NCBI RefSeq assembly: GCF_028291725.1
Contig: NZ_JAQGNT010000059.1
Span: 62,001-126,000, forward strand
Direction: 5' to 3'
DNA length: 64,000 bases
From: Hydrocarboniphaga sp.
GTDB lineage: Bacteria; Pseudomonadota; Gammaproteobacteria; Nevskiales; Nevskiaceae
Below, in pieces: positions 19,608-37,781 of the stretch (position 1 is its first letter; the number at the start of each line of letters is the position of its first letter). Position numbers and translations under genes: made by a program. The notes beneath the pieces were generated by a model. It did no database searches, was not told where the DNA came from, and saw nothing but the letters and a program-made list of their open reading frames with translations.

Positions 19608-20948
19608 CTATTCCTCGCCAACCGCCTTGAACTGCGTCGGCGCCAGCCCGTAGCGATTCAGCAGCTTGTAGAAATCCGTGCGATTGCGCCGCGCCAGCCG
19701 CGCCGCGCGGCTGATATTGCCCGACGACAGCTCCAGCAGCTGCCGCAGATACGCCCGAGTGAAATCGGCGCGAGCCTCGTCGAACGAGGCCAGGCTGCCG
19801 CTGGTTTCACCCAGGCAGCGGCGTGCGAGGGATGCGCTGATGATGCGCGCTGGCGCCAGTGCGGCGCAGCGCTCGACGACGTTGAACAACTGCCGCACGT
19901 TGCCCGGCCATGCGGACGCGACCAGCAGCTCCATCGCCTCCGGCGCACACACGCGCCGCGGGCCGCCGGCCGCATGCAGATAATCCAGGTGATGTGCCAC
20001 CAGCGCCGGAATATCTTCGCGGCGCTGATCCAGCGCCGGCAGGCGCAGGCGCACCACGTTCAGGCGATAGAACAGATCGGCGCGGAACGAGCCGTCCTCG
20101 ACACGCGCCTCCAGATCGCAGTGCGTCGCCGAAATGACCCGCACATCGACCCGCACCGTGCGCGTTTCGCCGAGTGGGCGCACTTCGCGCTCCTGCAGTA
20201 CGCGCAGCAGCTTGGCCTGCAGGTTCAGCGGCATGTCGCCGATTTCGTCGAGAAAAATGCTACCTCCTTCCGCGGCGCGGAACAGGCCGGGATGGTCGGT
20301 AGTGGCGCCGGTGAAACTGCCGCGCTTGTGGCCGAACAACTCGGATTCGAGCAGCTCCGAGGGTACGGCGGTGCAGTTGATCGCGACGAAAGGCCGCGGG
20401 CCGCGCGGACCGCCGCGATGGATCGCGCGCGCCAGGACCTCTTTGCCGCTGCCGCTGGCGCCGGTGATCAGGACCGCCGAGTCGGTGCGCGCGACACGTT
20501 CGGCATCGTCGAGCAGTGCATGCATCAGCGGGCTGCGCGTGACCACGTCATGTGCCCAGTTCTTGGTGCCGGCATGCAGCGGTTCGGTATAGCGGCGAAT
20601 GCAGGCGAGCAGGCCATCGCGATCGATGGGCTTCAACAGAAAGTCGACTGCGCCGGCGTGCGTTGCGCGCACCGCATCGGGCACGTCGCCATACGCCGAC
20701 AGGATTGCAACCGGCAGGCTCGGATGACGCTGCTGAATCTGCGTCATCAGCTGAATGCCGTCGAGCCCGGGCATGCGCATATCCGTCAGCACCATGTGCG
20801 GCCGCGCGATGTCGAGCCGTCGCAGGGCCTCTTCGCCAGAACCGGCCGCAATCACGCCATAGCCTTCGGATTCCAGGCGCAGAGTCAGGATACGCAGCAG
20901 TTTGCTATCGTCGTCAACGACTAATATTTGCGGGCTTTCCACTGTCAT
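19608..20948 (-). CDS. glrR: GlrR-type (QseF) sigma-54-dependent response regulator
   Basis: The 446-residue protein has a receiver domain (DDD at 12-14, phosphoacceptor Asp56 in LTDMRMPG, Lys in LLKPID), an AAA+ sigma-54 activation domain with Walker A GASGSGKE, the sigma-54 contact loop GSFTGA (canonically GAFTGA) and Walker B IFLDEIGDMP, and a Fis-type HTH at the C-terminus. The last helix region, NRTDFYKLLNRYGL, is nearly the same as in E. coli GlrR. The ATG at 20948 fits the receiver start; the frame runs further upstream but inside the neighbouring gene. It overlaps the QseG-like gene by 35 bases. In enterobacteria GlrR activates glmY at sites TGTC-N10-GACA; such sites lie upstream of the alginate operon here. 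Confidence 0.92.
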   Translation of the reverse strand: MTVESPQILVVDDDSKLLRILTLRLESEGYGVIAAGSGEEALRRLDIARPHMVLTDMRMPGLDGIQLMTQIQQRHPSLPVAILSAYGDVPDAVRATHAGAVDFLLKPIDRDGLLACIRRYTEPLHAGTKNWAHDVVTRSPLMHALLDDAERVARTDSAVLITGASGSGKEVLARAIHRGGPRGPRPFVAINCTAVPSELLESELFGHKRGSFTGATTDHPGLFRAAEGGSIFLDEIGDMPLNLQAKLLRVLQEREVRPLGETRTVRVDVRVISATHCDLEARVEDGSFRADLFYRLNVVRLRLPALDQRREDIPALVAHHLDYLHAAGGPRRVCAPEAMELLVASAWPGNVRQLFNVVERCAALAPARIISASLARRCLGETSGSLASFDEARADFTRAYLRQLLELSSGNISRAARLARRNRTDFYKLLNRYGLAPTQFKAVGEE

Positions 20949-21453
20949 TCCTGCCTGGTTGCTTGTCCGCTGCCGTATCCAGGCTGCGTTCGATCGAGAC
21001 GATCTTGTCGAGGCGGCGCTGCAGATCAGCATTCGACGCCTGGTATTCCAGCATCGTGTCGAGCTCGGCGACGCGCAGCTTGGCAAGGTTGCGCAGATCG
21101 GGATCTACCTGACTGCGCGAGCTGATCTTCTTCAAGTCCCGCTGAGCTGCGGCTGGGTCGTATCCGCTGTGCGAGGGCAGGCTTTGGAGCAGCGCGATCC
21201 GCAGACGGCCGGCTTCGCTGCCGGTATCACCGCGATGTGCGCGCCACAGCTTTTCGCGCTGATCGGGCGTTGCATTCATTGCCGCAACCAGGAATTCCAG
21301 TTGCGATGATGGTGATGAGCGCGCATCGCCGCGCGGACTTGCGTCAAGCACGCAGGCCGATAGCAGCATGCCTGCGCTAATCGCAGGGAACAGGCCAGAG
21401 CAGATGAAAGCGCGCGCCAGGCTGAGCATCTTCGATAGTGATTGTGCCACCAT
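20914..21453 (-). CDS. qseG: QseG-like outer-membrane lipoprotein
   Basis: The product (179 residues from the ATG at 21453) has a signal peptide with lipobox LSAC (Cys34), then a mostly helical, charged region ending in a coiled-coil-like stretch (NADLQRRLDKIVSIERSL). It sits between the GlrK-type kinase and the GlrR-type regulator, which is exactly where qseG (yfhG) lies in E. coli, where it interacts with the kinase. Sequence conservation in this family is low, so the name rests mainly on gene order and the lipobox. Starts at 21429 or 21537 are also possible; all overlap the kinase 3' end. Confidence 0.75.
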   Translation of the reverse strand: MVAQSLSKMLSLARAFICSGLFPAISAGMLLSACVLDASPRGDARSSPSSQLEFLVAAMNATPDQREKLWRAHRGDTGSEAGRLRIALLQSLPSHSGYDPAAAQRDLKKISSRSQVDPDLRNLAKLRVAELDTMLEYQASNADLQRRLDKIVSIERSLDTAADKQPGRNDSGKPANISR

Positions 21454-22885
21454 GAGCTTCTGCAACTTCCTTGACGATGGAGAGACCGACACCGGTGCCC
21501 CGGATGCCTTGTTCTTCGGCTTCGCCGCCGCGGACAAAGGGCTCGAAAATGTTCTGCTTCTCGGCTTCGGCGATGCCGCGGCCGTAGTCGCGCACGCTGA
21601 TTCTGCAATGCACCTGATCGCGGGCCGTGCGGATCTCGATCACGCTGCCGCTCGGTGCATGCTTCAGTGCATTGGTCAGCAGATTGTCCAGTGCGACGCG
21701 GATCTGCGAACGCTGGCCATGCAGCGGAATATCGTCGGCGGTGTCGACGTCGATGAACAGCTCACGTTTGGCCATCGCCAACGCGTGCATGGCCAGCACC
21801 TCGTCGAGCAGCGGCCGCGGCGCAAAGTCGACGCACCGCGCCTGACGCAGTCCGTCGTGCCACTGCGCATATGCCAGCAGATTGCTGATCAGCGAGTCGA
21901 GCTCGGCGGTCGCTTCGGACAGAATGCCGGCGACTTCGCTCTGTCTCGGCGTCAGTCCGCCGAGCGCGCCTTCGCACAGCATTTCGGTGCCTTCCCGAAG
22001 GCTTGCCAGCGGTGTTTTCAGCTCGTGCGAAACCTGGCGCAGAAAGCGGTCCTTGTCGGCTTCAAGCTGTGCTAGGCGCCGTCGCAGCCATTCGAGCTGT
22101 TCGCCGAGCCTATGCATCTCGCGCGGGAAGCCGATCGTGACGGCGGGCACGGCGCGGCCATGGCCGAGCGCGGCAATCGTGCGGTATATCTTGCGCAGCG
22201 GGCGGGTCACCGCCAGCGTGCAGGCGAAGGCGAGCAGCGCGGCGAGGGGGATCAGCGTGATCGCCGACATCATCATTTCGCGTCGCGCATGCAGCGTGGT
22301 ACCGCGCAGTTGATCGAGCCGCAGGATGGTGCGCTCGCGCATCAAGACGATGATGTCGTGCAGCTCGGTGGCGACCGCATGCAGCTGCTCGCCGGACCGA
22401 TCCCCATTGGCGGCTTCTTCGGTGCCGACGTCGGCTTCCCAGGTCCTGCGCGTGTCCAGCAGCTGCCTGCGCACTTGGGTAACCTGCGCAGCGAGCTCGA
22501 TTCCGAGCGGCTGTGCGGCCAGGCTCTGTGCGGTCGCGAGTGCAGAGTCCCAGCGCCGCTCCGCCAGTTGATACAGCTGAGGATCGCGCAGCACCAGATA
22601 CTGGCGCACGCTGCGCTCGACATCGTCCAGTTGGCTGTCGAGGTCACCGGCCAGTTGTGCAACGGTAACGCCTTCGTCGATCAGCGCCTCGGTGCTGTCG
22701 ATGATGCGTTCCAGGGACTGCCCGGCGAGCCACAACGCAAACAGCAGTGGCGTCGCCGCCAGCAGGCAGCCTCCACCGACGAGGCCGGCCATGGTTCGAG
22801 GCCGCCGCAGCAGCCAGTTCGCGAAGCGACGCGGGCTTTCGGCTCGCCGCAACGCGACATCGATGGGCACGCTGATGGTATTCAC
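21377..22885 (-). CDS. glrK: GlrK-type (QseE) membrane sensor histidine kinase
   Basis: About 502 residues. Two transmembrane helices (about 32-54 and 206-228) flank a helical periplasmic sensor. A HAMP-like linker follows, then the H-box FLRQVSHELKTPLASL with His287, the N-box NLLTNALKHAP, and the G2 box GTGVGLSIVKEV. It should phosphorylate the GlrR-type regulator encoded two genes downstream. The GTG at 22885 is the chosen start; the open frame extends far upstream without coding character, and 22870 is another possible start. The gene is transcribed away from the alginate operon, sharing the 22886-23383 intergenic region with it. Confidence 0.9.
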   Translation of the reverse strand: MNTISVPIDVALRRAESPRRFANWLLRRPRTMAGLVGGGCLLAATPLLFALWLAGQSLERIIDSTEALIDEGVTVAQLAGDLDSQLDDVERSVRQYLVLRDPQLYQLAERRWDSALATAQSLAAQPLGIELAAQVTQVRRQLLDTRRTWEADVGTEEAANGDRSGEQLHAVATELHDIIVLMRERTILRLDQLRGTTLHARREMMMSAITLIPLAALLAFACTLAVTRPLRKIYRTIAALGHGRAVPAVTIGFPREMHRLGEQLEWLRRRLAQLEADKDRFLRQVSHELKTPLASLREGTEMLCEGALGGLTPRQSEVAGILSEATAELDSLISNLLAYAQWHDGLRQARCVDFAPRPLLDEVLAMHALAMAKRELFIDVDTADDIPLHGQRSQIRVALDNLLTNALKHAPSGSVIEIRTARDQVHCRISVRDYGRGIAEAEKQNIFEPFVRGGEAEEQGIRGTGVGLSIVKEVAEAHGGTITIEDAQPGARFHLLWPVPCD

Positions 22886-23000
22886 TCGCTTTCGCGGTCC
22901 ACGGAAACCCAGCCCTTCCTTAGGCAATGAGCCGATTTCGGACGAAGTGGACTTAACCAGCGATGAACGCGGAGTTCGTCGGGTGCTCGGCTGCGCGAGC

Positions 23001-23018
23001 TGTCGCTGAATCGCGACA
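23001..23018. promoter_or_regulatory. Predicted GlrR binding site 1 (exact match)
   Basis: TGTCGCTGAATCGCGACA matches the enterobacterial GlrR consensus TGTC-N10-GACA exactly and is a 6-6-6 dyad (TGTCGC/GCGACA). Confidence 0.7.
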
Positions 23019-23099
23019 GGCCGCGCCTTGGCGTTCGCCGCAAGCGGCTGGTCGGCAGTACCGGGGCAGGAGTAACGGGCTGTGCTTGACGCTGCCCGG

Positions 23100-23117
23100 T
23101 GTTGCTCGATGGCGACA
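23100..23117. promoter_or_regulatory. Predicted GlrR binding site 2
   Basis: TGTTGCTCGATGGCGACA matches TGTC-N10-GACA with one mismatch and keeps the outer GC pairs of site 1. Confidence 0.6.
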
Positions 23118-23180
23118 GCGGCAGAAATGGTGCAGCGCATGCCGGTCGCCGGCGGTTTCGACGATTGGCAGAACGATTCT

Positions 23181-23198
23181 TGTCGCCAGATCGCGACG
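23181..23198. promoter_or_regulatory. Predicted GlrR binding site 3
   Basis: TGTCGCCAGATCGCGACG matches TGTC-N10-GACA with one mismatch in the last base and lies about 100 bases upstream of the sigma-54 -24 element, a normal enhancer distance. Confidence 0.65.
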
Positions 23199-23284
23199 CT
23201 TTTCAGCGTGTGCGGCGCGGCAATATTCGGCTTGACGGCGGGCACCGATCGCAAGTCACTGATCTCACAGGCAGCACTTCGAGC

Positions 23285-23300
23285 TGGCACGGCCATTGCC
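23285..23300 (+). promoter_or_regulatory. Sigma-54 promoter for the alginate operon
   Basis: TGGCACGGCCATTGCC matches the -24/-12 consensus TGGCACG-N4-TTGC, with GG (23286-23287) and GC (23298-23299) separated by exactly ten bases. Transcription would begin near 23311, giving a leader of about 73 bases before manC. Confidence 0.8.
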
Positions 23301-23383
23301 ATATTTCTGCTGCGAGTTGGTGGCAAGGATTGCCGGAAGACCGAGCTCGCATCGCCACGGGCAACCGCAACGAGAGGTGTGAC

Positions 23384-24874
23384 ATGGACGTTCCCCCTAG
23401 ACTTTTTCCTTCGATGATTTCGGCGCGAACCATCGTTCCGGTGCTGCTCGCCGGCGGTAGCGGCAGCCGGCTCTGGCCCTTGTCGCGAGAGCACTACCCT
23501 AAACAGTTTCATGCGCTGCTCGGTGCCGAAAGCCTGTTTCAGGACACCGTCGCGCGTGCATCGCAAATCGAGAACGCGCTCGGGCCGGTCGTGATCGGTG
23601 CCGAGAAGCATCGATTCGTCATCGCCGAGCAGCTGCGTCAATCGGATATCCGCGACGCATCCGTGCTGCTGGAGCCCGATGCGCGCAATACCGCGCCGGC
23701 GGTCGCGGTTGCCGCGCATTTCGTGATGGAGAATTTCGGATCCGAGGCTCTGGTCTTCGTGATGGCGGCCGATCATGCGATCGGCGACATCAAGGCGTTC
23801 ACCGAGGCGGTGACGGCCGCGGCCGAAGTCGCCGAGCGCGGTTACATCGTCACTTTCGGCATCAAGCCGACGCGCCCCGAAACCGGCTTCGGTTATCTGA
23901 AGGCCGGCCCCAGGCTCGGCACCAGCAGCGCCCATCTGGTCGAGAGCTTCGTCGAGAAACCCACGGCGACGCGCGCCCAGGAATTTATCGAGCAGGGCGA
24001 TCACTACTGGAACGGCGGCATGTTCCTGTTCCGCTCCGGCCAGTTCCTCGCCGAGCTGCGCAAGCACGAGCCGGCGACGTATGAGAAATCGCGTGAGGCG
24101 ATCGACAAGGGCCGCCGCGATAAAAATGTGATCAGCCTGGATGCCAAGTCCTTCAGCGGCTGCCGCGCCGATTCGGTCGACTATGCGGTGATGGAAAAGA
24201 GCGACCAGCTGGCGCTGGTGCCGCTGGATGCCGACTGGGACGACGTCGGCTCCTGGAATTTTCTCGAGCGTCTACCCGAGCAGGACGCCGACGGCAACCG
24301 TAGCCGCGGCGATGTGATGTTCGAGTCCTCGCACGGCAACCTGGTGCATTCCGGTGGGCGGCTGATCGCGATGGTCGGCGTCGATGATCATGTTGTCGTG
24401 GAGACCGAAGACGCGGTGCTGGTGGTTCCGCGCAGCCGTGTGCAGGACGTCAAAAAACTGGTGCAGCAGCTGAAGCGCCGCAAACGCAGCGAGGCCGATG
24501 CGCACCGCCGCGTCTATCGGCCCTGGGGCTTCTACGAAACCGTTGCGTTTGGCGAGCGCTTTCAGGTCAAGCGTATTGCCGTCAAGCCAGGCGAGCAGCT
24601 GAGCCTGCAGATGCATTACCACCGCGCCGAGCACTGGGTGGTGGTCAAGGGCTCGGCGATGGTCACTTGCGGAGACAAGCGCTTCATCGTGTCCGAAAAC
24701 GAGTCGACCTATATCCCGACCGCCCAGGTTCACCGCCTGGAAAACCCGGGACGCGTGACGCTGGAGCTGATCGAAGTCCAGTCCGGCTCCTATCTGGGCG
24801 AGGACGACATCGTGCGCATGAGCGATGTCTACGGCCGCATCGAAAGCAAGGCCGACAGCCTCGCAAAAACCTGA
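23384..24874 (+). CDS. algA: Bifunctional mannose-6-phosphate isomerase / mannose-1-phosphate guanylyltransferase (AlgA/ManC)
   Basis: The 496-residue enzyme has the N-terminal nucleotidyltransferase motif GGSGSRLWPLSREHYPKQF (about residues 23-41), FVEKP in the middle and a C-terminal type II isomerase cupin (RPWGFYE, then QMHYHRAEHWVVV). It makes mannose 6-phosphate from fructose 6-phosphate and GDP-mannose from mannose 1-phosphate, the first and third steps of alginate precursor synthesis. The ATG at 23384 has GAGAGG six bases ahead; a longer frame starting at 23099 would run through the sigma-54 promoter and is rejected. In Pseudomonas algA ends the operon; here it is first. Confidence 0.93.
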   Translation: MDVPPRLFPSMISARTIVPVLLAGGSGSRLWPLSREHYPKQFHALLGAESLFQDTVARASQIENALGPVVIGAEKHRFVIAEQLRQSDIRDASVLLEPDARNTAPAVAVAAHFVMENFGSEALVFVMAADHAIGDIKAFTEAVTAAAEVAERGYIVTFGIKPTRPETGFGYLKAGPRLGTSSAHLVESFVEKPTATRAQEFIEQGDHYWNGGMFLFRSGQFLAELRKHEPATYEKSREAIDKGRRDKNVISLDAKSFSGCRADSVDYAVMEKSDQLALVPLDADWDDVGSWNFLERLPEQDADGNRSRGDVMFESSHGNLVHSGGRLIAMVGVDDHVVVETEDAVLVVPRSRVQDVKKLVQQLKRRKRSEADAHRRVYRPWGFYETVAFGERFQVKRIAVKPGEQLSLQMHYHRAEHWVVVKGSAMVTCGDKRFIVSENESTYIPTAQVHRLENPGRVTLELIEVQSGSYLGEDDIVRMSDVYGRIESKADSLAKT

Positions 24875-25027: not shown

Positions 25028-26338
25028 ATGGACATCAGCATTTTTGGTATGGGATATGTCGGCGCCGTCTGCGCCGCCGCCCTCGCAGACCGTGGCCACG
25101 GCATCATCGGCGTCGACGTTTCCAAGGACAAAGTCGATCTGATCAATGCCGGCCGTTCGCCGATCGTCGAACCCGGCCTGGAGGAGCTGCTCGCCAAGGG
25201 CGTCAAGTCCGGCAAGCTGCGCGCGACTTCGGACATCATCGACGCGATCACGGCGACCAGCCTGTCGATGATCTGCGTCGGCACGCCGAGCAAGAAGAGC
25301 GGTGATCTGGATCTGGAGCATATCGAGGCGGTGTGCCGCCAGATCGGCGCCGCGCTGAGAGGCAAGCAGGAGCGTCATACGATCGTGGTTCGCAGCACCG
25401 TGTTGCCGGGCACCGTGCGCAATGTCGTGATGCCGATCATCGAAGAAGCGTCCGGCAAGCAGTTCGGGCCGCAGCTGGGCCTGGCGGTGAATCCGGAATT
25501 CCTGCGCGAGAGCACCGCGATCAGGGACTACGCCGAACCGCCGATGACGGTGATCGGCGAGCTTGACGAATCGTCCGGCGATCTTCTCGCATCGATCTAT
25601 GAAGACTTGCCGGCGGAGATCCTGCGCCGATCCATCGAAGTGGCGGAGATGGTGAAGTACTCGTGCAATGTATGGCACGCGACCAAGATCTCGTTCGCCA
25701 ACGAAATCGGCAACATCGCCAAGGCCGCCGGCGTCGATGGACGTGACGTCATGGAAGTCGTCTGCCAGGACAGCAAGCTCAATCTGAGCGACTACTACAT
25801 GCGCCCGGGCTTCGCGTTCGGCGGTTCCTGCCTGCCCAAGGACGTGCGGGCGCTGTCGTATCGTGCGACGCAGATGGACGTCGAGATCCCTCTGCTGAAG
25901 TCGCTGATGCTGACCAACCAGGGCCAGATCAAGAAGGCCTTCGACCTGGTCGAATCCTTCGGCCTGCGCAAAATCGGCATGCTCGGCCTGAGCTTCAAGG
26001 CCAAGACCGACGATCTGCGCGAGAGCCCGCTGGTCGAACTCGCCGAAATGCTGATCGGCAAGGGCTACGAGCTGAGCATCTACGACAAGAACGTCGACTA
26101 CGCGCGCGTGCACGGCGCCAACCGCGACTACATCAACAGCAAAATCCCGCATATTTCGTCGCTGCTCAAAACCGAGCTTAGCGATGTGATCGACGAATCC
26201 GAAGTTCTGGTGCTTGGCCTGCGCGACCGCAGCTTCGAGAAGTACGTCAACGGCTCACGTGCGGACCACAAAGTCGTCGACCTGGTCGGCTTCATGCCGG
26301 AATTGTCCGACGAGGACATGCAGGGCATCTGCTGGTAG
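25028..26338 (+). CDS. algD: GDP-mannose 6-dehydrogenase AlgD
   Basis: The 436-residue enzyme begins [20 protein letters not shown], a Rossmann NAD-binding start typical of AlgD. The catalytic cysteine is in [16 protein letters not shown] (about residues 261-276), and the C-terminus ends LVGFMP...GICW as in Pseudomonas. It oxidises GDP-mannose to GDP-mannuronic acid, the committed and usually limiting step in alginate synthesis. Length and motifs match the family along the whole protein. It lies 153 bases after algA with a strong hairpin between them. Confidence 0.97.
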
Positions 26339-26354
26339 ATGCGGAGTACTCAGC

Positions 26355-27902
26355 GTGATTGCGCCAAGCCAGATCGCCGTGCCCGCAAGGCCGGTCGAGG
26401 TTCGCCAGCCGCAAGGCCGCTCGAAGTTTCGCGACTTCATCGGCTGGCTGCTGTACGCCACCGGCCTGCTGTTGATCGCGATCCTGCTGCCGGCGGACGC
26501 TTTTGATCCGGCATCGGCGAACTACTTCATGGCGATCGGCGCGCTCGGCATCTGGCGCTACTCACTGCGAGCGATCCACTTCATCCGCGCGATGCTGTTC
26601 CTGAAGTGGGAGTATCCGCGGCTGCGCAAGCTCGCCGATGCGGCGGGTGACAGCGCGGCGCCTTCGCATGTGTATCTGCTGATCACCAGCTTCCGCATCG
26701 ACGCGCAGACCACCGCCGACGTTTATCGCGCCAGCATCCAGGAGGCGATCCGCTGCGGCTGGCCGGCCACCCTGGTCGCGTCGATCGTCGAGATGTCGGA
26801 TCAGCGCATCATCATGTCGCTGTGGGATGCGATGCAGCCGCCGGATCGGGTGCGGCTGAAGATCGTGCGCATTCCCGGCACCGGCAAGCGTGACGGCCTG
26901 GCGCAGGGCTTTCGTGCGATCTCGCGCGACATGCCCGACGACGATGCCGTGGTTGCGGTGATCGACGGCGATACGCTGCTGCAGCCAGGCGTGATCAGCC
27001 GCACCGCGCCGTTCCTGAAGCTGCTGCCGGGCGTCGGCGCGCTGACCACCAACGAGTTCTGTCAGGTCGAAGGCGGCTACCTGATCAGCGAGTGGTACAA
27101 GCTGCGGTTCGCGCAGCGCCACCTGAACATGTGCTCGATGGCGCTGACCCGGCGCGTGCTGACGCTGACCGGAAGAATGTCGCTGTTCCGCGCCAGCATC
27201 ATCACTGACCCGAGCTTCATCTACGACGTGCAGCACGACGCGCTCGATCACTGGCGTCTCGGCCGCTTCCAGTTTCTGACCGGCGACGACAAGTCCAGCT
27301 GGTACAGCCTGATGCGTCTGGGCTGGGATACCTGGTACGTGCCGGATGCGTCGATCAGCACGGTCGAGCATCCACCCGATCCCAGTTTTTTCAAATCCTG
27401 CAAGCAGCTGATGTTCCGCTGGTACGGCAACTCGCTGCGCCAGAACGGCCGCGCGATGGGCCTGGGCCCGGGGCGCCTCGGCTGGTTCACCTACTACGTG
27501 CTGCTCGATCAACGCATCCTGATGTGGACCGGCCTGCTCGGGCTGGCGCTGGCGGTCGCGGCCAGCATCCGCTTCAACATTTTTTTCCTGGTCAGCTTTC
27601 TGCTGTGGGTCGGGCTGACGCGCCTGATCATGGCCTGGCTGCTGGTAATTTCCGGTCATCCGGTCGGTCCGGGATTCCCGCTGCTGCTGTACTACAACCA
27701 GATTCTCGGCTCGCTGATGAAGATCAAGGTTTCGTTCCGTCTCGACCAGCAGTCGTGGACGCGGCAGAAGACCACGCTCGACCGCGGCCTCAACGATTTT
27801 CAGACTCGATTCAATCGCTGGTCTTCCAACATTTTCACTTTTGCCGCGTGCAGCTTGTTTGCAGCTTTCGTGGTGGCGATGGTGACCGCGCCGGCACCGT
27901 AG
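26355..27902 (+). CDS. alg8: Alginate polymerase Alg8 (GT2 glycosyltransferase)
   Basis: The 515-residue protein has N-terminal membrane helices, a cytoplasmic GT2 domain with VIDGDT (metal-binding DxD type) and LTGDDKSSW (catalytic base), an RWYGNS motif standing in for the QxxRW-type acceptor motif, and C-terminal helices. Alg8 polymerises GDP-mannuronate into polymannuronate across the inner membrane and needs Alg44. The GTG at 26355 has GGAG eight bases ahead and begins 16 bases after algD; the frame reaches back into algD but the family start supports 26355. Confidence 0.95.
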
Positions 27903-27998: not shown

Positions 27999-29240
27999 AT
28001 GGACGATGTCAGACCTTCACTGGTGCACGAGGCCGAGGCACAACGCCAGCATCCGCGGGTGCGCGTCGCCGGCAGTTTTCTGCTCGACGGCGAAGGCGCG
28101 CCGCGCAGTTATCGCCTCAACGACCTGTCGGCCGGCGGGCTCAGCTTCGACGCGCAGAGCGATCGCTTCCAGGTCGGCGCCACGCTGCGCGGACGGCTTG
28201 GTTTCCAGCTCGAATCGGTGTCGATGGTGTTGCCGATCACGCTGCAGATCCGCAATGTATCGCCGGGCGGCAGCCGCGTCGGCGGCAGCTTCATGGCGCT
28301 GGGCACGCGCGAAACCTCGGTGCTGCGTCAGCTGATCAACTCGACGCTGGCGGGCGAGCTGGTATCCACCGGCGAGCTGATCAACGTGCTGTCGCGCGAC
28401 AATTTCGTCAAGCCGCGCGCGGTCAAGGACGCCGGCGGGCTCAGCGGCCGCGCACGCTTTCGCGCGATGATGGCGACCGCGGCGATGGCCCTGGTCGGAA
28501 TCGCTGCCTGCTTTTATGCGGGGTCCAAACTCTATGCGATGGCCTTCGTCACGCAGGCGTCCGCGGCCAAGGTCGCCGCGCCGAGTTTCGCGGTGACGAT
28601 GCCGCGCGACGGTACGTTCTTCAGCCTGATTCCGGCCGACGGCATCGTCAAAAAAGGCCAGCCGCTGGGTTCGTTCCAGGCGGCGATGCTCGACGTGGTG
28701 CAGTCCGATCTCGGCTCTATGCATCTGACGCCGGAACAGCTGTCGGCGCTGATGGGCGAGCAGCTCAAGGGCACCTTGTCGAGCCCCTGCGATTGCCGCG
28801 TGCAGCAGCAGATCGCGTTCGACGGCCAGTATGTGAACCGCGGCCAGCCGCTGTTCGAGCTGGTGCCGGTCGACGCCAAGCCTTACGTGCTGGCGCGCTT
28901 CCGCTTCGAGAGCATCGATCGTCTGCCGATCGGCCGTGTCGTCGCGTTCACGGTCACCGGCGATTCGACCGAGCGCTACGGCAAGGTGCGTGATCTGCGC
29001 CTGCTGTCGCCGGCCGGCGCCGCCGAAGCCAGCGCCAGCGACATGCGCGGCCTCAACGGCGCCAGCGCTCTGTCCGACGTGATCGCGACGATCGAGCCGG
29101 ACCGCCCGCTCGACAACCAGCTGATCGACCGCCCGGTGCAGGCGACACTCGGCAACGAGTCCGCGATCAGCGCAGCGGTGGCGAGCCTGAGCGAACGCGC
29201 GCGCACGCTGGTGTCGCAGAAGCTGGTCGCGCAAAAGTGA
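27999..29240 (+). CDS. alg44: Alginate co-polymerase Alg44 (PilZ c-di-GMP receptor)
   Basis: The 413-residue protein has an N-terminal PilZ domain with RQHPR at residues 16-20 (RxxxR) and the downstream NDLSAGG motif that together bind c-di-GMP. A transmembrane helix (about residues 157-180) follows, then a periplasmic HlyD/MFP-like region containing GDCRVQQQ-type strand segments. Alg44 activates Alg8 when c-di-GMP is bound and bridges to periplasmic components. Both key arginines are present, so allosteric control should be intact. The gene starts 96 bases after alg8. Confidence 0.95.
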   Translation: MDDVRPSLVHEAEAQRQHPRVRVAGSFLLDGEGAPRSYRLNDLSAGGLSFDAQSDRFQVGATLRGRLGFQLESVSMVLPITLQIRNVSPGGSRVGGSFMALGTRETSVLRQLINSTLAGELVSTGELINVLSRDNFVKPRAVKDAGGLSGRARFRAMMATAAMALVGIAACFYAGSKLYAMAFVTQASAAKVAAPSFAVTMPRDGTFFSLIPADGIVKKGQPLGSFQAAMLDVVQSDLGSMHLTPEQLSALMGEQLKGTLSSPCDCRVQQQIAFDGQYVNRGQPLFELVPVDAKPYVLARFRFESIDRLPIGRVVAFTVTGDSTERYGKVRDLRLLSPAGAAEASASDMRGLNGASALSDVIATIEPDRPLDNQLIDRPVQATLGNESAISAAVASLSERARTLVSQKLVAQK

Positions 29241-29250
29241 GCCGGCGCGC

Positions 29251-30945
29251 ATGAGCCGGTTCCGGCATGGCGCCGCGCGCTTATCGGTGATGGCCTTGTC
29301 TGGCGCGCTGCTGGTTGCGGCGGTCGCCCGGGCGCAGGAGACCGTCGTCGTCGAGGCCAAGTCGGCTGCGGCCCGCGGGCTGCCGGATCTGAAGCGCGGC
29401 CAGCTGGCCGCCACCGAAGATCGCATGGACGATGCCGAAGCCGATCTGCTGCCGCTGGCCGAGCTTGGCTATGTCGAGGCGCAAATCGCGCTCGGCAAGC
29501 TCTACGCACGCATCGGCACGCCGGATCGCATCGCTGCGGCGATCGTCTGGCTGCGCCATGCCGGGCAACGGGCACCGGTGCCGGTGCAGGTTCCGCTCGG
29601 CCGCCTGCTGGCCCGCTCCAATGATCCCAACGAACTCGTCGAAGCCCAGCAGCTGTTGAGCACGGCCTACGCGGATCGCAGGGACAGCGAGGCGCTGGCC
29701 GGCCTGGTGCGCCTGTACTCCGGACATCCGCAGCTGGATCGCGAGCGGCAGGTCGCCAGGCTTGCCGCGCGTGCCGAGAAGATTCCGCAGCCGGACACCC
29801 TCTCGGCCGCCGTTGGCTGGTATCGCAGCACGCCGCAGATAGAAGGCCATCCCGCGCATCTGCTCGAGCTGTGCCGCAAGGCGATCGACCAGGTACCGGA
29901 ATGCCATATCGATCTGGCCAAAGATGCGCGGCGCCGCGGCGATCACAAGCAGCTCGAAAAGCAGGTCGACGACAGCATCGTCGCGTATGACGCTCAACTG
30001 CTGAGTGAAACCGCGCTGACTTCGCTGGCGCGTGTACTGGTCGACGATCCGAAAGACGACAGCAACGATCCGATCCCGAATCTGTCGGCCCTGGACGTGA
30101 AGCTGTCCGATGTCGAGGAAGACGAAGGCGAGGCGGCGCTGCGCCAGCAGGCTGCGGAGCACAGCCAGATCTCGCCGGGCTGCAGCGGGCCGAGCCTGCC
30201 GGTCGCGGCGAAACCCGCCGGCGATGACGCCGCTCCGACGGACGCGGCGACTTCGGCAGCCGCGCAGGAGATCGCAGCCGAGCCTGAACTTGCCGGCAAG
30301 GTCCTGCAGAAACTGCTGCAGGGGCAGGGCCTCGCACCGGTGCTCGCGGCCGGCGTGGTGGTGCGCTATCCGTATCTGTTGCCCGGCACCGACGTCGAAG
30401 CCAGGCTGAAGCAGGGCGACGAGGATGGGGTGCCGGAAGCGCGGCTGTATCTGGGCACGCTGTATCTGCAGGGCGCTCGGGCGGTCCGCGATCCGGCGCG
30501 CACGCTGCAATATCTGAGCAAGGCCGAACACGATCCGCAGACGGCGCTGCAGGCGCATTATTTTCTCGGCCGTCTGTATCAGTACGGCTATCTGGACGAG
30601 AGTTCGCCGCTGTTGGCAACCCGGCATCTGATCTACGCCGCGCGGCATGGCTATGCCTCGGCCGACGGCGCGATCGCGCGGCTGTTTTCGTCCGGCAAGG
30701 GGCTATGCCCGAATCTGCTCGACGCCTACGTGTTCGCCAAGCTTGCCGTTGCCGGCGGCAGCGACAACACCGCGCCGCTGCTCGCTGCGATCAAGGCGCA
30801 GCTGAGCCCGCAGCAGGCCACCGAGGCCGAGCAGCGGCTGCGCGCCGAAATCGCCGCGCGCCCGGATGCCGGCGCCGGCCGCTATGCCCAGCAAACGCCG
30901 GCGAATCCGCTGGCCGCCGGTTCTGCCAGGGACGGCCAGACCTGA
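29251..30945 (+). CDS. algK: Alginate periplasmic scaffold AlgK (TPR/Sel1)
   Basis: The 564-residue protein has a signal sequence and many Sel1-like TPR repeats (for example AEADLLPLAELGYVEAQIAL and ARLYLGTLYLQGARAV). AlgK is an outer-membrane lipoprotein in Pseudomonas (about 475 residues) that binds AlgX and positions the AlgE porin. Here the signal peptide ends AARAVARAQE-like with no lipobox cysteine, so the mature protein may be soluble or anchored otherwise. A low-complexity Ala/Asp/Pro segment (about residues 305-345) explains part of the extra length. It begins ten bases after alg44. Confidence 0.9.
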   Translation: MSRFRHGAARLSVMALSGALLVAAVARAQETVVVEAKSAAARGLPDLKRGQLAATEDRMDDAEADLLPLAELGYVEAQIALGKLYARIGTPDRIAAAIVWLRHAGQRAPVPVQVPLGRLLARSNDPNELVEAQQLLSTAYADRRDSEALAGLVRLYSGHPQLDRERQVARLAARAEKIPQPDTLSAAVGWYRSTPQIEGHPAHLLELCRKAIDQVPECHIDLAKDARRRGDHKQLEKQVDDSIVAYDAQLLSETALTSLARVLVDDPKDDSNDPIPNLSALDVKLSDVEEDEGEAALRQQAAEHSQISPGCSGPSLPVAAKPAGDDAAPTDAATSAAAQEIAAEPELAGKVLQKLLQGQGLAPVLAAGVVVRYPYLLPGTDVEARLKQGDEDGVPEARLYLGTLYLQGARAVRDPARTLQYLSKAEHDPQTALQAHYFLGRLYQYGYLDESSPLLATRHLIYAARHGYASADGAIARLFSSGKGLCPNLLDAYVFAKLAVAGGSDNTAPLLAAIKAQLSPQQATEAEQRLRAEIAARPDAGAGRYAQQTPANPLAAGSARDGQT

Positions 30946-31033
30946 TGAACATGATCTATAAAAACGGGATCAATAAACAGGATCAATAAACAGGATCAAT
31001 AAACGGGATCAATAAAAACATGATCAATAAAAA
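30945..31033 (+). repeat. 13-bp tandem repeats leading into the algE start codon
   Basis: Units of the form GGATCAATAAACA start at 30967, 30980 and 30993, with variant units at 31006 and 31021; the algE ATG (31020) lies at the junction of the last two. A 14-codon open frame beginning at 30945, overlapping the algK stop as TGATG, reads into the repeats and stops at 30989. The array looks like slippage duplication of the algE ribosome-binding region. Confidence 0.85.
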
Positions 31034-32480
31034 TTCCAATGGAGCCTTGGCTGTTGTTCGCCGCCGGCATCTGTCGATGCTCGTCGCCGCCGGCTTTGGT
31101 GTCGCGATGCCGGTGATCGCCGATGCGCTCGAACTCGACTATCGGCTGAAGGCCACGGTCGCCGGCGTCGCCGATGGCGGCCGCGATCTGGATCTCAACA
31201 ATGCGGACTCGACCGCCGAGGCCTACGTCGACATGACGCCCTGGGTGCATCTGCAGTTCAATGAGGACTGGGCCGCGTTCGTCCGCGTGCGTGCTTATCA
31301 GCCGAGCGGCAGCTTGCTGCAGCCCGGCAACGAGAACGACAACCTCGGTGCCACCAGCAAGGGCTTCGTCGCGCTGAAGGAAGCCTGGGTTGAATACGGC
31401 GGCCTGACCAGCTATCCCGGCGAAGTACTGCGGCTTGGCCGGCAGCGCATCCGCGATGAAGATGCCCAGTTCCTCGATCAGGAAATCGACGCGCTGCGCT
31501 GGATCGTCGACACCACGCTGCTCAACAGCGAGCTCGGCGTCGCCCACCAGTTCGACAGCTACCGCAGCGATGGCGCCGATATCGCGCGCGAGCAGAAGGA
31601 CCGTACCTACGTATTCGGCCATATCGATTACGACTGGATCGAGCGTCAGCGCATCGGCCTGCGCGTGGCGCATGCGATCGACGACGAGCATCTGCCGGCG
31701 CCTGGCGACACCGTTGACCCGAGCGAGCGCAACACCCAGGGGAATCTGACCTGGATCGGCGTCTACGCCGACAACCATTCCTATGATTGGCGGCCGATCC
31801 AGCCTCAGGGCGCCGAGCTTTCGTACTGGAGTTCGGCGACTTTCCTGAGCGGCCATCGCGATCGCATCATCGAGGACCCGGCGACGCACACGGTCGTCGG
31901 CAGCGCCGGCGAAGACACGCATGCCTGGGCTGCCGAGACCGGCATCCGCGCGCGCGTCGCGGGCCCGGTTCAAGTCGGCGCGGCTTACGCCTACAGCAGC
32001 GGCGGCAGCGCCGATGACGCGGACCGGCAGTTCGAGCAGACTGGCATCCAGAGCAACTACTCGCGCTTCACCGGTACGCGCACGCAGATCTATCGCTACA
32101 ACGAGGCCTACCGGCCCGAACTAGGCAACCTGGAAGTGGCCAGCGCGTTCGCGTCGCTCAGCGAAGCCGGCTACGACGCCAGCCTGATCTACAACCGCTT
32201 CCGCCGTACCCAGAGCGACGGTGCCGTGGTCAGCGACGGGCTGAGCGTATCTCCCGTGCAGGACAGCCACGACCTCGGCGACGGCCTCGACCTGGTGATG
32301 AGCCGATACTTTTCGCTCGGCCGCGCCAGCACCGACGAGCTGCCGGACTACACGCCGTCCGACGACGCGGCCGACAGCTCGCTGCGGCTGCGTGCGTCCT
32401 GGTTCAATCCGGGCAAGGCCTACGGCGCGCAGGCCAAGGACGAGTACCGCGTGATGCTGGAGTTGACGCTGTGGTATTGA
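31020..32480 (+). CDS. algE: Alginate outer-membrane export porin AlgE
   Basis: The 486-residue protein has an N-terminal signal sequence ending near ADALELDYR, then a beta-rich sequence with alternating hydrophobic strands and a C-terminal residue set ending LTLWY, typical of an outer-membrane barrel. The segments LRLGRQRIRDEDAQF and DEEIDALRW-like portions match AlgE, an 18-strand barrel with an arginine-lined, anion-selective pore. Pseudomonas AlgE is about 490 residues. The start codon sits inside a tandem repeat; the last ten bases overlap the algG start. Confidence 0.93.
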   Translation: MINKNSNGALAVVRRRHLSMLVAAGFGVAMPVIADALELDYRLKATVAGVADGGRDLDLNNADSTAEAYVDMTPWVHLQFNEDWAAFVRVRAYQPSGSLLQPGNENDNLGATSKGFVALKEAWVEYGGLTSYPGEVLRLGRQRIRDEDAQFLDQEIDALRWIVDTTLLNSELGVAHQFDSYRSDGADIAREQKDRTYVFGHIDYDWIERQRIGLRVAHAIDDEHLPAPGDTVDPSERNTQGNLTWIGVYADNHSYDWRPIQPQGAELSYWSSATFLSGHRDRIIEDPATHTVVGSAGEDTHAWAAETGIRARVAGPVQVGAAYAYSSGGSADDADRQFEQTGIQSNYSRFTGTRTQIYRYNEAYRPELGNLEVASAFASLSEAGYDASLIYNRFRRTQSDGAVVSDGLSVSPVQDSHDLGDGLDLVMSRYFSLGRASTDELPDYTPSDDAADSSLRLRASWFNPGKAYGAQAKDEYRVMLELTLWY

Positions 32481-34243
32481 GATGGCCAGCGACGCTGTCG
32501 GGCCTGCTGCTGAGCCTGATGCTGGGGCTGGGCTGCGCGCCGGCGGATGCGCGGCCCGCGGCGCAGCATACGCCGCTGCCGAGCGCAGCGAGCGACCCGG
32601 ACGAAGACCCGGATGTCGTGACGCCGAAGTTTGCAAAAACGCCGCGGCTCGGCCTGGGCGATCACGACGACGCATCCAGCGACGACGAGATGCTCGATGC
32701 CTCGCTGGACGATCCCGGCGAGCGCTATCAGACCGACGGCTCGGATCAGGACGATCCGGCCGAGGACGATCGCAAGCTGCTCGAAGCCGAGAAGCGGCCG
32801 TACGAGATCAGCACCTCGTCCGGCGCCGAGCTGAAGATGGCGCCGCCGACCTTGCCGGATCTGACGCCTTATACCGCCGACAAGGTGATGGAGAAGATTC
32901 AGCAGAAGCGGCCGGGCCGTGCCGAAGTCGCCAGCGTGCTGAACCAGCTGTCGTTCCGCGGCTTCATGGGCCGCGACGAACGCATGCGCGACTGGGCGGC
33001 GCGGCAGGGCGGCTTGCCGAAAGCGATCTTCATCCGCGGTGGCTACGTCACGCCGCGCGACATCGCCCGGCAGGTACCGCGCCAGTACTTCGAGGAAGTG
33101 CAGAAGGGCGTGTTCGTCGCGCGCCTGCCGATCGACGTCGCGCCGGGCGCGACCCTGCATATCGACGACTCGGTCGGCGATTTCCGCTTGTCGCAGGATC
33201 GCGGATCGTTCCTGATCAACGAGGGCCGGCTGTTCATCACCGGCAGCCGGCTGCGTGCCTGGAACGAGGCACGCAAGGACGCCGCGCAGTTCGAGGACAA
33301 GCACGACTTCCGGCCCTTCATCGTGTCCTGGGGCGGATCGCAGACTTACATCGTCAACAGCGTGATCGCCAACCTCGGCTATGCATCGAGCAAATCCTAC
33401 GGCGTGTCGATTTCGCAGTTCTCGCCGTCGCTGAAACAGGTGATGAACCGGCCGAACCCGAGCGGCTGGATCATCGACTCCGAGTTCTATGACCTGTGGT
33501 ATGGCTTCTATTGCTACGAGGCTGAAGACTTCGTGCTGCGCGGCAACGACTACCACGACAACATCAAGTACGGCATCGATCCGCACGATCGCTCGCGGCG
33601 CCTGATCATCGCCGAGAACAAGGCGTATAGAACTCGCGAGAAGCACGGCATCATCGTCTCGCGCGAAGTCGACGACAGCTGGATCATCAACAACGAGGCC
33701 TATGAGAACCATCTGTCGGGCATCGTCGTCGACCGCAACAGCGTCAACAACGTAGTTGCGTACAACCGTGTCTATCGCAACAAGTCCGACGGCATCACGA
33801 TTTACGAGAGCCCGCAGACGCTGATCTGGGGCAACCTGGTCACACGCAACAACCGTCACGGCATGCGCGTGCGCAACAGCACCGACGTGCGCCTGTACGA
33901 CAACGTCGCCATCGCCAACGGCCTGTCCGGCGTCTACGGCCACGTCAAGGACCTGCGCGGCACCGGCCGAAACATGGCGCTCGATCCTTTCCGCAAGACG
34001 ATCTCGATGATCGTCGCCGGTGGCCAGCTGATCTCCAACGGCTCGTCGCCGGTCAACATCGATCAGCCGCTGAGTCTGGAGTTGTACGACGTCGACCTGC
34101 GCGCGCCGCAGCGCGAGCTCGGCATCAAGTTCACCGGCATTCTCGGCAAGCACCAGGACGAAGTGCTGAACATTCTGATGCGGCAGAAGAAGGCGGTGGT
34201 GGTGCGGCCCGCAACCGCCACCGTCGTCGGCACGAGCAACTGA
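32471..34243 (+). CDS. algG: Mannuronan C5-epimerase AlgG
   Basis: The 590-residue protein has a signal peptide (about residues 1-28), a right-handed beta-helix built of parallel-helix repeats, and the catalytic motif DPHD at residues 370-373. AlgG converts mannuronate to guluronate residues in the periplasm and belongs to the export scaffold. Residues about 40-105 are highly acidic and probably disordered (DPDEDPDVV, DDASSDDEM, SDQDDPAEDD), an extension compared with the 543-residue Pseudomonas protein. The GTG at 32471 overlaps algE by ten bases; a TTG at 32477 is another option. Confidence 0.95.
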   Translation: MVLRWPATLSGLLLSLMLGLGCAPADARPAAQHTPLPSAASDPDEDPDVVTPKFAKTPRLGLGDHDDASSDDEMLDASLDDPGERYQTDGSDQDDPAEDDRKLLEAEKRPYEISTSSGAELKMAPPTLPDLTPYTADKVMEKIQQKRPGRAEVASVLNQLSFRGFMGRDERMRDWAARQGGLPKAIFIRGGYVTPRDIARQVPRQYFEEVQKGVFVARLPIDVAPGATLHIDDSVGDFRLSQDRGSFLINEGRLFITGSRLRAWNEARKDAAQFEDKHDFRPFIVSWGGSQTYIVNSVIANLGYASSKSYGVSISQFSPSLKQVMNRPNPSGWIIDSEFYDLWYGFYCYEAEDFVLRGNDYHDNIKYGIDPHDRSRRLIIAENKAYRTREKHGIIVSREVDDSWIINNEAYENHLSGIVVDRNSVNNVVAYNRVYRNKSDGITIYESPQTLIWGNLVTRNNRHGMRVRNSTDVRLYDNVAIANGLSGVYGHVKDLRGTGRNMALDPFRKTISMIVAGGQLISNGSSPVNIDQPLSLELYDVDLRAPQRELGIKFTGILGKHQDEVLNILMRQKKAVVVRPATATVVGTSN

Positions 34244-34277
34244 CGTGAAACTGGCAATGCCCATCAATCACGCCGCT

Positions 34278-34378
34278 CCGTTCCTCCCGAGTAGCCTCGC
34301 GCAGCGAGACGTATCGAGGGACTTGAGCACGATGCATCCCTCGATACGGCCACTGCGTGGCCTACTCGGGAGGAACGG
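34278..34378. repeat. Palindromic repeat family B, copy 1
   Basis: The outer arms read CCGTTCCTCCCGAGTAGC and its complement, with inner GTATCGAGGGA/TCCCTCGATAC complements, spanning 34278-34378. Related copies occur at 40480-40602 and 42963-43060. It fills the algG-algI gap of 183 bases. Confidence 0.9.
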
Positions 34379-34426
34379 GGTTTCCCGAAGAGTGTCGATC
34401 CACGCCACCAGCGAGCGACTGTAACC

Positions 34427-35857
34427 ATGGTCTTCTCATCCAACGTATTCCTGTTTCTGTTTCTGCCGCTGTTCCTGGCGGTGTACTACCTGACGCCGGA
34501 TCGCGGCCGTTACCGCAACTGGGTCGTGCTGATCGGCAGCTATGCGTTCTACGCCTGGTGGCGTGTCGATTTCCTGCTGCTGTTCGCCGGCGTCACGGTG
34601 TTCAACTACCTGATCGGTCTGCGCATCGGCCAAGCCGGCGCACGTAGCGCGCTGGCCAGGCGCTGGCTGATGCTGGGTGTCGGCGTCGATCTGGCAACGC
34701 TGGGCTATTTCAAGTACGCCAACTTTGGCGTCGACAGCTTCAACCTGCTGCTAGCCCAGTTCGGGCTGCAGCCCTTCGTGCTGGCGCATGTGATCCTGCC
34801 GATCGGCGTGTCGTTCTATGTGTTCGAGTCGATCAGCTACATCGTCGATGTTTATCGCGGCGACGTCGAAGCCACCAAGCATCCAGTGGACTTCGCGACC
34901 TTCATCGCGCTGTTCCCGCATCTGATCGCCGGCCCGGTTTTCCGTTACAAGGATCTCGCCGGGCAGTTCGAAAAGCGCGAGCACAGCGTCGAGCTGTTCG
35001 GTCAGGGTTCGCTGCGATTCATGCAGGGTTTCGTCAAGAAAGTCTTCATCGCCGACTCGATCGCGCCAATGGTCAGCCAGGCTTTTTCGCTGAGCGATCC
35101 GACTACGGCCGACGCCTGGTTAGGGGCGATCGCGTATACGGTGCAGCTGTACTTCGATTTCAGCGGCTACAGCGACATGGCGATCGGCCTGGGCCTGATG
35201 ATGGGCTTCCGCTTCGTCGAGAACTTCAACCAGCCCTATGTCAGCCAGAGCATCACCGAGTTCTGGCGGCGCTGGCATATGAGCCTGTCGAGCTGGCTGC
35301 GCGACTATCTGTACATCGCGCTCGGCGGCAATCGCGGCGGCGTCGCCAAAACCTATCGCAATCTGTTCCTGACGATGCTGCTCGGCGGGCTGTGGCACGG
35401 CGCCAATTTCACGTTTCTGATCTGGGGTGCCTGGCACGGCGCGATCCTGTGCATCGAGCGGGTACTCGGCGTGAAGGCCGAGCGTCCGGGCTTCAGCCTG
35501 ATTCGCTGGGCGCCGACTTTCCTGTTCGTGGTGCTGGGCTGGGTCATGTTCCGCGCCGAGCGCGTCGGCGTCGCCTGGCAGTTCTATACCGCGATGTTCT
35601 CCTTCGATGGCCTCGGCTTGAGTGAGGCTTTCGGCAGCTCGATTACGCATCTGCAGCTGGCGACGCTGCTGCTGGCAGTGCTGGTGCTGATCTGGCGCGG
35701 CGCCACCGCCGGTCGTGCCGAGCCGACGGCACTGCGGCCGGTGATGGCGCAGCGCATGTTCAGCCTGGCGCAGTGGCTGGTGTGGCCGCTGTTCGTGCTC
35801 GCGGTGCTGAAGCTGTCGGCACAGAGCTATTCGCCCTTCCTGTATTTCCAATTCTGA
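34427..35857 (+). CDS. algI: Alginate O-acetyltransferase membrane subunit AlgI (MBOAT)
   Basis: The 476-residue integral membrane protein has about eleven hydrophobic segments and the MBOAT signature around GLWHGANFTFLIWG, with the putative active-site His at residue 324. AlgI takes acetyl groups from a cytoplasmic donor and passes them to periplasmic AlgJ/AlgX. Length and the WHG motif match Pseudomonas AlgI. It is separated from algG by repeat family B. Confidence 0.95.
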   Translation: MVFSSNVFLFLFLPLFLAVYYLTPDRGRYRNWVVLIGSYAFYAWWRVDFLLLFAGVTVFNYLIGLRIGQAGARSALARRWLMLGVGVDLATLGYFKYANFGVDSFNLLLAQFGLQPFVLAHVILPIGVSFYVFESISYIVDVYRGDVEATKHPVDFATFIALFPHLIAGPVFRYKDLAGQFEKREHSVELFGQGSLRFMQGFVKKVFIADSIAPMVSQAFSLSDPTTADAWLGAIAYTVQLYFDFSGYSDMAIGLGLMMGFRFVENFNQPYVSQSITEFWRRWHMSLSSWLRDYLYIALGGNRGGVAKTYRNLFLTMLLGGLWHGANFTFLIWGAWHGAILCIERVLGVKAERPGFSLIRWAPTFLFVVLGWVMFRAERVGVAWQFYTAMFSFDGLGLSEAFGSSITHLQLATLLLAVLVLIWRGATAGRAEPTALRPVMAQRMFSLAQWLVWPLFVLAVLKLSAQSYSPFLYFQF

Positions 35858-35898
35858 GTTCCCGTTCTGAGTTCCAGTTCTGAGGCCGGAGAGATCGC

Positions 35899-37005: not shown

Positions 37006-37037
37006 GAGCGGGAACTTCATTCGCCGCCACCGCTGCC

Positions 37038-37116
37038 GTCATTCCCGCGAAGGCGGGAATCCAGGGATGCGAGCGGCGTGCTATCCGCTCTGGATTCCCG
37101 CCTTCGCGGGAATGAC
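37038..37116. repeat. Palindromic repeat family E
   Basis: Perfect 27-base arms, 37038-37064 and 37090-37116, of the type GTCATTCCCGCGAAGGCGGG, a form seen widely in proteobacterial genomes. Each arm is also self-complementary (TTCCCGCGAAGGCGGGAA). It lies between algJ and algF. Confidence 0.9.
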
Positions 37117-37149
37117 GAAGCTTAAGTAGTTCAAATCAGGAGAACCACC

Positions 37150-37773: not shown

Positions 37774-37781
37774 GCCGGCTG

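Follow-up and report, generated by a model that had tools for sequence, protein, structure and literature searches.

Conserved GlrR-type operator sites and a sigma-54-type promoter suggest that GlrKR controls the alginate operon in Nevskiales

The alginate operon of the order Nevskiales appears to be a target of the two-component system GlrKR. From a comparison of alginate promoters within and outside the order, we propose, with a probability of roughly 0.86, that phosphorylated GlrR activates sigma-54 transcription of these genes, an old operator thus serving a new target. The DNA analysed, hereafter the window, is a stretch of 64,000 nt from a Hydrocarboniphaga sp. genome. The sites, the promoter, the gene content, their conservation, the co-segregation with GlrR and the constant spacing are established at the level of sequence, as described below.

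The intergenic stretch at 22886-23383 is bordered on one side by the GTG start codon of glrK (minus strand) at 22885 and on the other by the ATG of algA (plus strand) at 23384. It contains four elements:

23001-23018, dyad 1 (distal), TGTCGCTGAATCGCGACA, TGTCGC-N6-GCGACA without mismatch
23100-23117, dyad 2 (middle), TGTTGCTCGATGGCGACA, one mismatch
23181-23198, dyad 3 (proximal), TGTCGCCAGATCGCGACG, one mismatch, starting 104 nt 5′ of the -24 element
23285-23300, plus strand, sigma-54-type -24/-12 sequence, TGGCACGGCCATTGCC, one mismatch to TGGCAC-N5-TTGCW, the consensus used for scoring

A preceding sequence-only reading had described three TGTC-N10-GACA dyads (0, 1 and 1 mismatch) followed by a near-consensus sigma-54 promoter reading into the alginate genes, and all four elements were re-found at these positions. 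The dyads also fit a longer form than the one given there, TGTCGC-N6-GCGACA, again with 0, 1 and 1 mismatches. From the position of the -24/-12 sequence, transcription would be expected to start near 23310.

Downstream of this promoter, on the plus strand, lie the alginate genes:

23384..24874, plus strand, algA (GMP/PMI), NCBIfam TIGR01479 at 660.9 bits, above the cut-off of 372.95
25028..26338, plus strand, algD (nucleotide-sugar dehydrogenase), NCBIfam TIGR03026, three UDPG_MGDP_dh domains
26214..27902, plus strand, alg8 (glycosyltransferase), Pfam Glyco_tranf_2_3, true start probably near 26340
27999..32480, plus strand, alg44 (PilZ), algK and algE, Pfam PilZ and Alginate_exp, NCBIfam AlgK at 188.6 bits, below the cut-off of 700
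32471..40467, plus strand, algG, algI (MBOAT), two AlgX/AlgJ-type genes, algF and algL, Pfam MBOAT, ALGX (two proteins), AlgF, CBM_26 and Alginate_lyase

AlgG and the alginate lyase scored 722 and 454 bits against NCBIfam cut-offs of 700 and 429, respectively. Judged by these matches, the genes make up a complete alginate operon (algA, D, 8, 44, K, E, G, I, J/X, F and L). The alg8 and alg44 assignments rely on general domains and, for alg8, also on similarity to named alginate loci, since it matched alg8 at 55-76% in relatives as well as in named Pseudomonas and others. One sequence with a broken frame was left out of the alg8 alignment. A second Alg8-like glycosyltransferase is encoded elsewhere in the same genome (G000:C63:13525-14853) and in a congener (G001:C2:932249-933586), and the stretches fetched around both contained no further alginate gene. 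These paralogs (39-41%) are without a dyad cluster and were set aside.

On the other side of the intergenic stretch, three genes are encoded on the minus strand:

19608..20948, minus strand, glrR, response regulator and sigma-54 activator of 446 aa, Pfam Response_reg and Sigma54_activat
20914..21453, minus strand, qseG-like lipoprotein gene, start codon uncertain (open reading frame open to 21537), lipobox-like LLSAC
21377..22885, minus strand, glrK, sensor histidine kinase of 502 aa, GTG start, HisKA and HATPase_c

The identification of these neighbours as GlrR, QseG-like and GlrK was borne out by domains, models and gene order. The best NCBIfam model for the regulator was GlrR (PRK15115) at 545.6 bits, a score below the curated cut-off of 763 for this model; ntrC followed at 406.9 bits, 139 bits lower, and AlgB was absent among the 25 models listed. 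The protein shares 51.7% identity with E. coli GlrR over 443 positions; its next matches in its own genome by E-value reached 45-46% identity (up to 51% for partial ATPase-domain matches). Model score and identity together indicate that the window regulator is orthologous to GlrR. The qseG-like product gave no Pfam or NCBIfam match; its translation, judged by eye, shows the lipobox-like LLSAC behind a hydrophobic stretch, and homologs (27-46%) sit between glrK and glrR in relatives. GlrK also adjoins glrR in relatives and is 30% identical to its E. coli counterpart over 464 positions, a low value which means that the signal may differ.

The segment that we take to be the recognition helix of GlrR reads RNRTDFYKLL in the window and RNRTEFYKLL in E. 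coli, so the description of this helix as nearly unchanged from enterobacteria holds. The motif RNR[ST]xFY[KR]LL was present in 22 of the 29 GlrR loci scanned; six of the other seven, including G008, were one residue off (RNRTDFYKLM or RNRTDLYKLL), and in L073 the helix was not found. None of the 11 paralog loci scanned in the window's own genome contained it.

To judge the weight of the sites, their frequencies were compared with chance. With one mismatch, TGTC-N10-GACA gave 26 matches in the window for 19.9 expected, a number reached by 13 of 100 shuffles, and the -24/-12 pattern with two mismatches gave 17, fewer than the shuffles (30.3). Over the genome, the 18-mer TGTCGC-N6-GCGACA with one mismatch was found 107 times compared with 120 for the reversed control. 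As these counts are at chance level, the short motif alone was dropped as evidence. Single sites are thus not rare; the cluster is. Triples within 200 nt are expected about 1e-6 times per 64 kb in simulated sequence (0 triples in 3 Mb) and about 6e-6 times when the genome's own site density is used. Ten other genomes supplied 25 dyads for training a symmetric matrix, the window being excluded; this matrix ranked the dyads at 23001, 23100 and 23181 first, third and fourth among all window positions; the second rank fell at 20684, inside glrR.

The dyad was then combined with the promoter in a single pattern (TGTC-N10-GAC, N75-105, TGGCAC-N5-TTGC, zero mismatches), which occurs once in the 6.47 Mb genome of 120 contigs, at the alginate promoter. 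The sequence-only reading had suggested a genome scan for the 18-mer; the site by itself turned out not to be special, and it is the combination with the promoter that is single and located here. Across 58 genomes of the family, the combined pattern was found at 12 places in 11 genomes and its reversed control at none. It was present in 10 of 18 genomes with GlrR (G019 being counted on its truncated gene) versus 1 of 40 without (Fisher p 8e-6). Alginate promoters account for five of the 12 places (G000, G008, G019, G024 and G061), and at least three others look weak and may be due to chance, as they lack the GC extension or are intragenic (G013:C8, G025:C18 and G026). A stricter two-dyad pattern, with two hits across 85 genomes (the G013 alginate promoter being one) versus one for the reversed form, was given no weight. 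A near-copy of dyad 1 at C9:125997 was rejected: in an 18 kb scan allowing two mismatches, a second dyad appeared only 7 kb off, and the nearest -24/-12 match lay at 1.6 kb.

Co-segregation was analysed among the alg8 carriers of the order (19 of 85 genomes, E <= 1e-130), whose alginate promoter was readable in 17, the contigs of G067 and G028 ending too early. Dyads and a sigma-54-type sequence were found 5′ of the alginate genes in all 11 genomes possessing GlrR, ten of which were assigned at E <= 1e-125 and G019 on a gene cut at the contig end. By the same threshold, six genomes with a readable promoter lack GlrR, an absence that depends on this one E-value, and none of the six has the dyad cluster; G071 shows a lone one-mismatch dyad match without the GC extension. 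The corresponding one-sided Fisher probability, calculated by hand, is 1/12376, which is optimistic given the relatedness of the genomes. The six are not six independent events because all belong to genus g3, a genus that also includes G078, in which both GlrR and the dyads are present.

The position of glrR varies in these genomes. In seven of the 11 dyad-bearing genomes glrKR is divergent from and adjacent to the alginate genes. Autoregulation is common among two-component systems, and this arrangement would suit a role of the dyads as autoregulatory sites of the glrK-qseG-glrR operon, with the alginate genes as mere neighbours. We regard this explanation as extremely unlikely. The window scan detected no -24/-12 match (<=2 mismatches) directed from the intergenic region toward glrK. 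The remaining four genomes (G038, G045, G048 and G061) have dyads and promoter at the alginate operon, with their glrR on a separate contig, and neither glrK nor glrR was matched beside the alginate genes; proximity alone therefore does not explain the sites, and the separation argues for action in trans. Lastly, the fixed distance of 102-104 nt is measured to the alginate -24 element.

This distance, from the start of the proximal dyad to the start of the -24 element, was observed in 10 of the 11 promoters, the window included. The exception is G078, where this dyad is a poor match (2 mismatches in 12 positions) lying 111 nt away. The next dyad is 66-69 nt farther in nine of the ten relatives by strict scan, and 67 nt in G078 if a weaker site is counted. 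The window differs here, its dyad spacings being 99 and 81 nt, unlike the 66-69 nt between the two proximal sites of the relatives. The -24/-12 sequences of these ten relatives carry 1-2 mismatches, two relatives having 2.

A close parallel is provided by the GlrK-QseG-GlrR system of E. coli (QseE-QseG-QseF), in which GlrR/QseF activates glmY, as described in PMC6075780. The E. coli glmY promoter contains three exact dyads and a sigma-54-type promoter, in agreement with the claim that three such sites stand at enterobacterial glmY beside glrK. Its last two dyads are 63 nt apart, and the proximal one is 107 nt from the -24 element, compared with 104 in the window; a matrix derived from the alginate promoters picks up all three. 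The two systems further share the kinase-lipoprotein-regulator order, a target adjoining the kinase gene, and, as noted above, a regulator of 51.7% identity with a near-identical recognition helix. They differ in that the window system would act on an operon of some twelve polysaccharide genes instead of an sRNA gene, and in that target and kinase genes are divergent there and co-directional in E. coli. No glmY was found next to glrK, where algA-algD lies instead; the window contains only two tRNAs at the Rfam gathering score.

Besides the kinase, which has diverged as reported above, the two systems may differ in the accessory sites. No IHF-like site (WATCAA-N4-TTR, the consensus used) with up to one mismatch was found in the window promoter, and an exact one is present in five of the ten relatives' alginate promoters. 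Activation of E. coli glmY is assisted by IHF, according to PMC6075780. From the description in the same source, and not by sequence, the window promoter can also be likened to E. coli rpoE P2, which under GlrR combines a sigma-54 promoter, similar upstream sites and an envelope-stress function (PMC6075780). Its target is a sigma factor gene, unlike that in the window.

Outside the order, the promoters look different. Among 80 named alg8 loci, six belong to Nevskiales by title. Five of these have the dyads and the contig of the sixth (L221) ends before the promoter; the five correspond to genomes G013, G019, G024, G070 and G078 and are not independent cases. The dyad cluster was found in none of the other 74, which are mostly from Pseudomonas and Marinobacter (L153 offering just 86 nt upstream). 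Eleven of the 74 contain one or two one-mismatch TGTC-N10-GACA matches, the sole pair (L164) being self-overlapping. A search for GlrR in seven of these 74 genomes gave a best match of <=46% identity in six, namely five Pseudomonas, Azotobacter and Marinobacter genomes and one Dyella.

The seventh, Hahella ganghwensis, encodes GlrR-like proteins matching at 53% and 50%, and its alginate operon is preceded by a -24/-12-like sequence without dyads. By this comparison, the presence of GlrR need not entail control of alginate. In this species, an exact pair of TGTCGC-N6-GCGACA dyads with a spacing of 64 nt was observed at L243:634-715, about 800 nt from glrR, with no -24/-12 match (<=1 mismatch) in the 4.3 kb around them. 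The GlrR of Hahella thus seems to keep the operator but not the alginate target. In two Hahella genomes (L166 and L188), algD is preceded at a distance of about 120 nt by the conserved -24/-12-like sequence TGGCATAAAGCTTGCT, without dyads. Together with the other outside loci, the Hahella pattern suggests that the alginate wiring is specific to Nevskiales among the genomes seen.

The contrast with Pseudomonas drawn in the sequence-only reading, namely that it uses AlgB/KinB instead, is correct insofar as the system is a different one and hides a likeness. As presented in PMC4064291, AlgB itself belongs to the NtrC family, and its action on algD depends on RpoN. KinB/AlgB of P. aeruginosa and the system proposed here would therefore both be two-component systems whose NtrC-family regulator acts on alginate genes with RpoN (PMC4064291); the regulators differ, and the dyad cluster is missing from the 74 alginate loci of the comparison outside the order. 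What is new in Nevskiales would thus be the two-component system and not sigma-54 logic for alginate, since AlgB already follows the latter.

The action of AlgB at Pseudomonas algD (PMC4064291) also raises the question of whether another sigma-54 activator, AlgB- or NtrC-like, uses the dyads, and the window's genome indeed contains 15 further ATPase-domain matches of at least 39% identity. We consider this very improbable. The dyads co-segregate with GlrR, and E. coli glmY, whose activator is GlrR/QseF in the account of PMC6075780, has the same dyads. The GlrR helix motif is absent from the own-genome paralog loci scanned, and the alginate loci outside the order are devoid of the cluster.

A different objection is that dyads and promoter are real and GlrR plays a minor part, the operon being driven mainly by other promoters, for example of the sigma-E/AlgU type. 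Several regulators are integrated at the Pseudomonas algD promoter (PMC4064291), and c-di-GMP probably acts as well in the window's organism, since Alg44 carries a PilZ domain. This remains an unlikely account: in an alignment of six promoters from GlrR-bearing genomes, conservation seems to centre on the -24/-12 element and the dyads, and a different upstream region is common to five of the six relatives without GlrR. This region, conserved upstream of algD in L046, L050, L232, L233 and L236, comprises the blocks TTTTGTGAC, CCTGTGAC and CCGTATACTTG, and TGGCGCGAAA at about -151.

Activation of the alginate genes by GlrR is the reading that we retain. The proposal that the GlrKR switch drives the whole alginate operon in this organism finds support in the comparison through the 11/11 versus 0/6 distribution, the loci in trans, the spacing, the match of helix and operator, and the 0/74 outside the order. 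In the corresponding model, binding, activation, start site and signal are the elements that we infer. GlrK and the lipoprotein QseG would sense and report the state of the envelope, by analogy with E. coli, where QseG is required for QseE/QseF activity, as stated in PMC6075780. GlrR, made by the divergent glrK-qseG-glrR genes, would be phosphorylated and bind the dyads, whose starts lie 104, 185 and 284 nt before the -24 element. DNA looping would then bring dyad-bound GlrR into contact with sigma-54 RNA polymerase at 23285-23300, and transcription of algA-algD-alg8-44-K-E-G-I-...-L would proceed from about 23310.

Other candidate GlrR targets were observed in the order. In family f6, two to three dyads and a perfect -24/-12 sequence lie downstream of glrR in 11 of the 12 glrR loci fetched. 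Of these 11 loci (L109:11947-12901, L113:1-1036 and nine more), eight encode a secreted-looking EF-hand protein of about 93-129 aa, and all 11 contain a C-rich motif in one to four copies, three copies from one locus folding as strong hairpins of about 80 nt. No Rfam match at the gathering score was obtained in the four f6 loci searched. It is possible that the C-rich hairpins form a GlrR-driven sRNA array, in parallel to glmY. In G025, four dyads and a -24/-12-like sequence precede a small EF-hand-like secreted protein upstream of glrK (L142:2504-3393). In G014, dyads with a -24/-12 sequence stand before a BON/OsmY-like gene downstream of glrR (L138:4900-6230), and the same arrangement precedes a further group of small genes (L138:10600-11400). 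The names EF-hand-like in G025 and BON/OsmY-like in G014 were given by eye from the translation. As predicted targets, those of G025, G014 and f6 fit an envelope theme.

GlrKR could be, and we say so tentatively for a rather doubtful idea, an ancestral envelope-status switch whose conserved enhancer layout was transferred as a whole from target to target (in enterobacteria glmY and rpoE; in Nevskiaceae and allies alginate; in f6 the EF-hand gene and hairpins), and alginate might be coupled by RapZ and the kinase to the supply of amino sugars, in the way that glmY is in E. coli. Alginate draws on fructose-6-phosphate, as does GlmS. A RapZ homolog is encoded in the window's genome; in E. coli, phosphorylation of QseE/QseF is stimulated by RapZ when the latter is free of glucosamine-6-phosphate, as reported in PMC7073468.

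GlrKR and its operator have been described before, as has AlgB, a regulator of the NtrC family that governs alginate with RpoN. Full-text searches of open-licence literature, subscription papers being mostly outside this scope, turned up no account of GlrKR acting on the alginate operon, which accords with the view that such a target is not known to be described. If the proposal is true, alginate synthesis would be a large structural target of GlrKR outside enterobacteria, and Nevskiales would use for alginate the system that activates glmY and rpoE in E. coli. It would represent a second route placing alginate under an envelope-sensing system, Pseudomonas using AlgU and AlgB/KinB. With the enhancer geometry kept and the target swapped, this would be a clean case of regulatory rewiring, for which the alginate promoters of the GlrR-less relatives, devoid of the sites, would provide natural controls.
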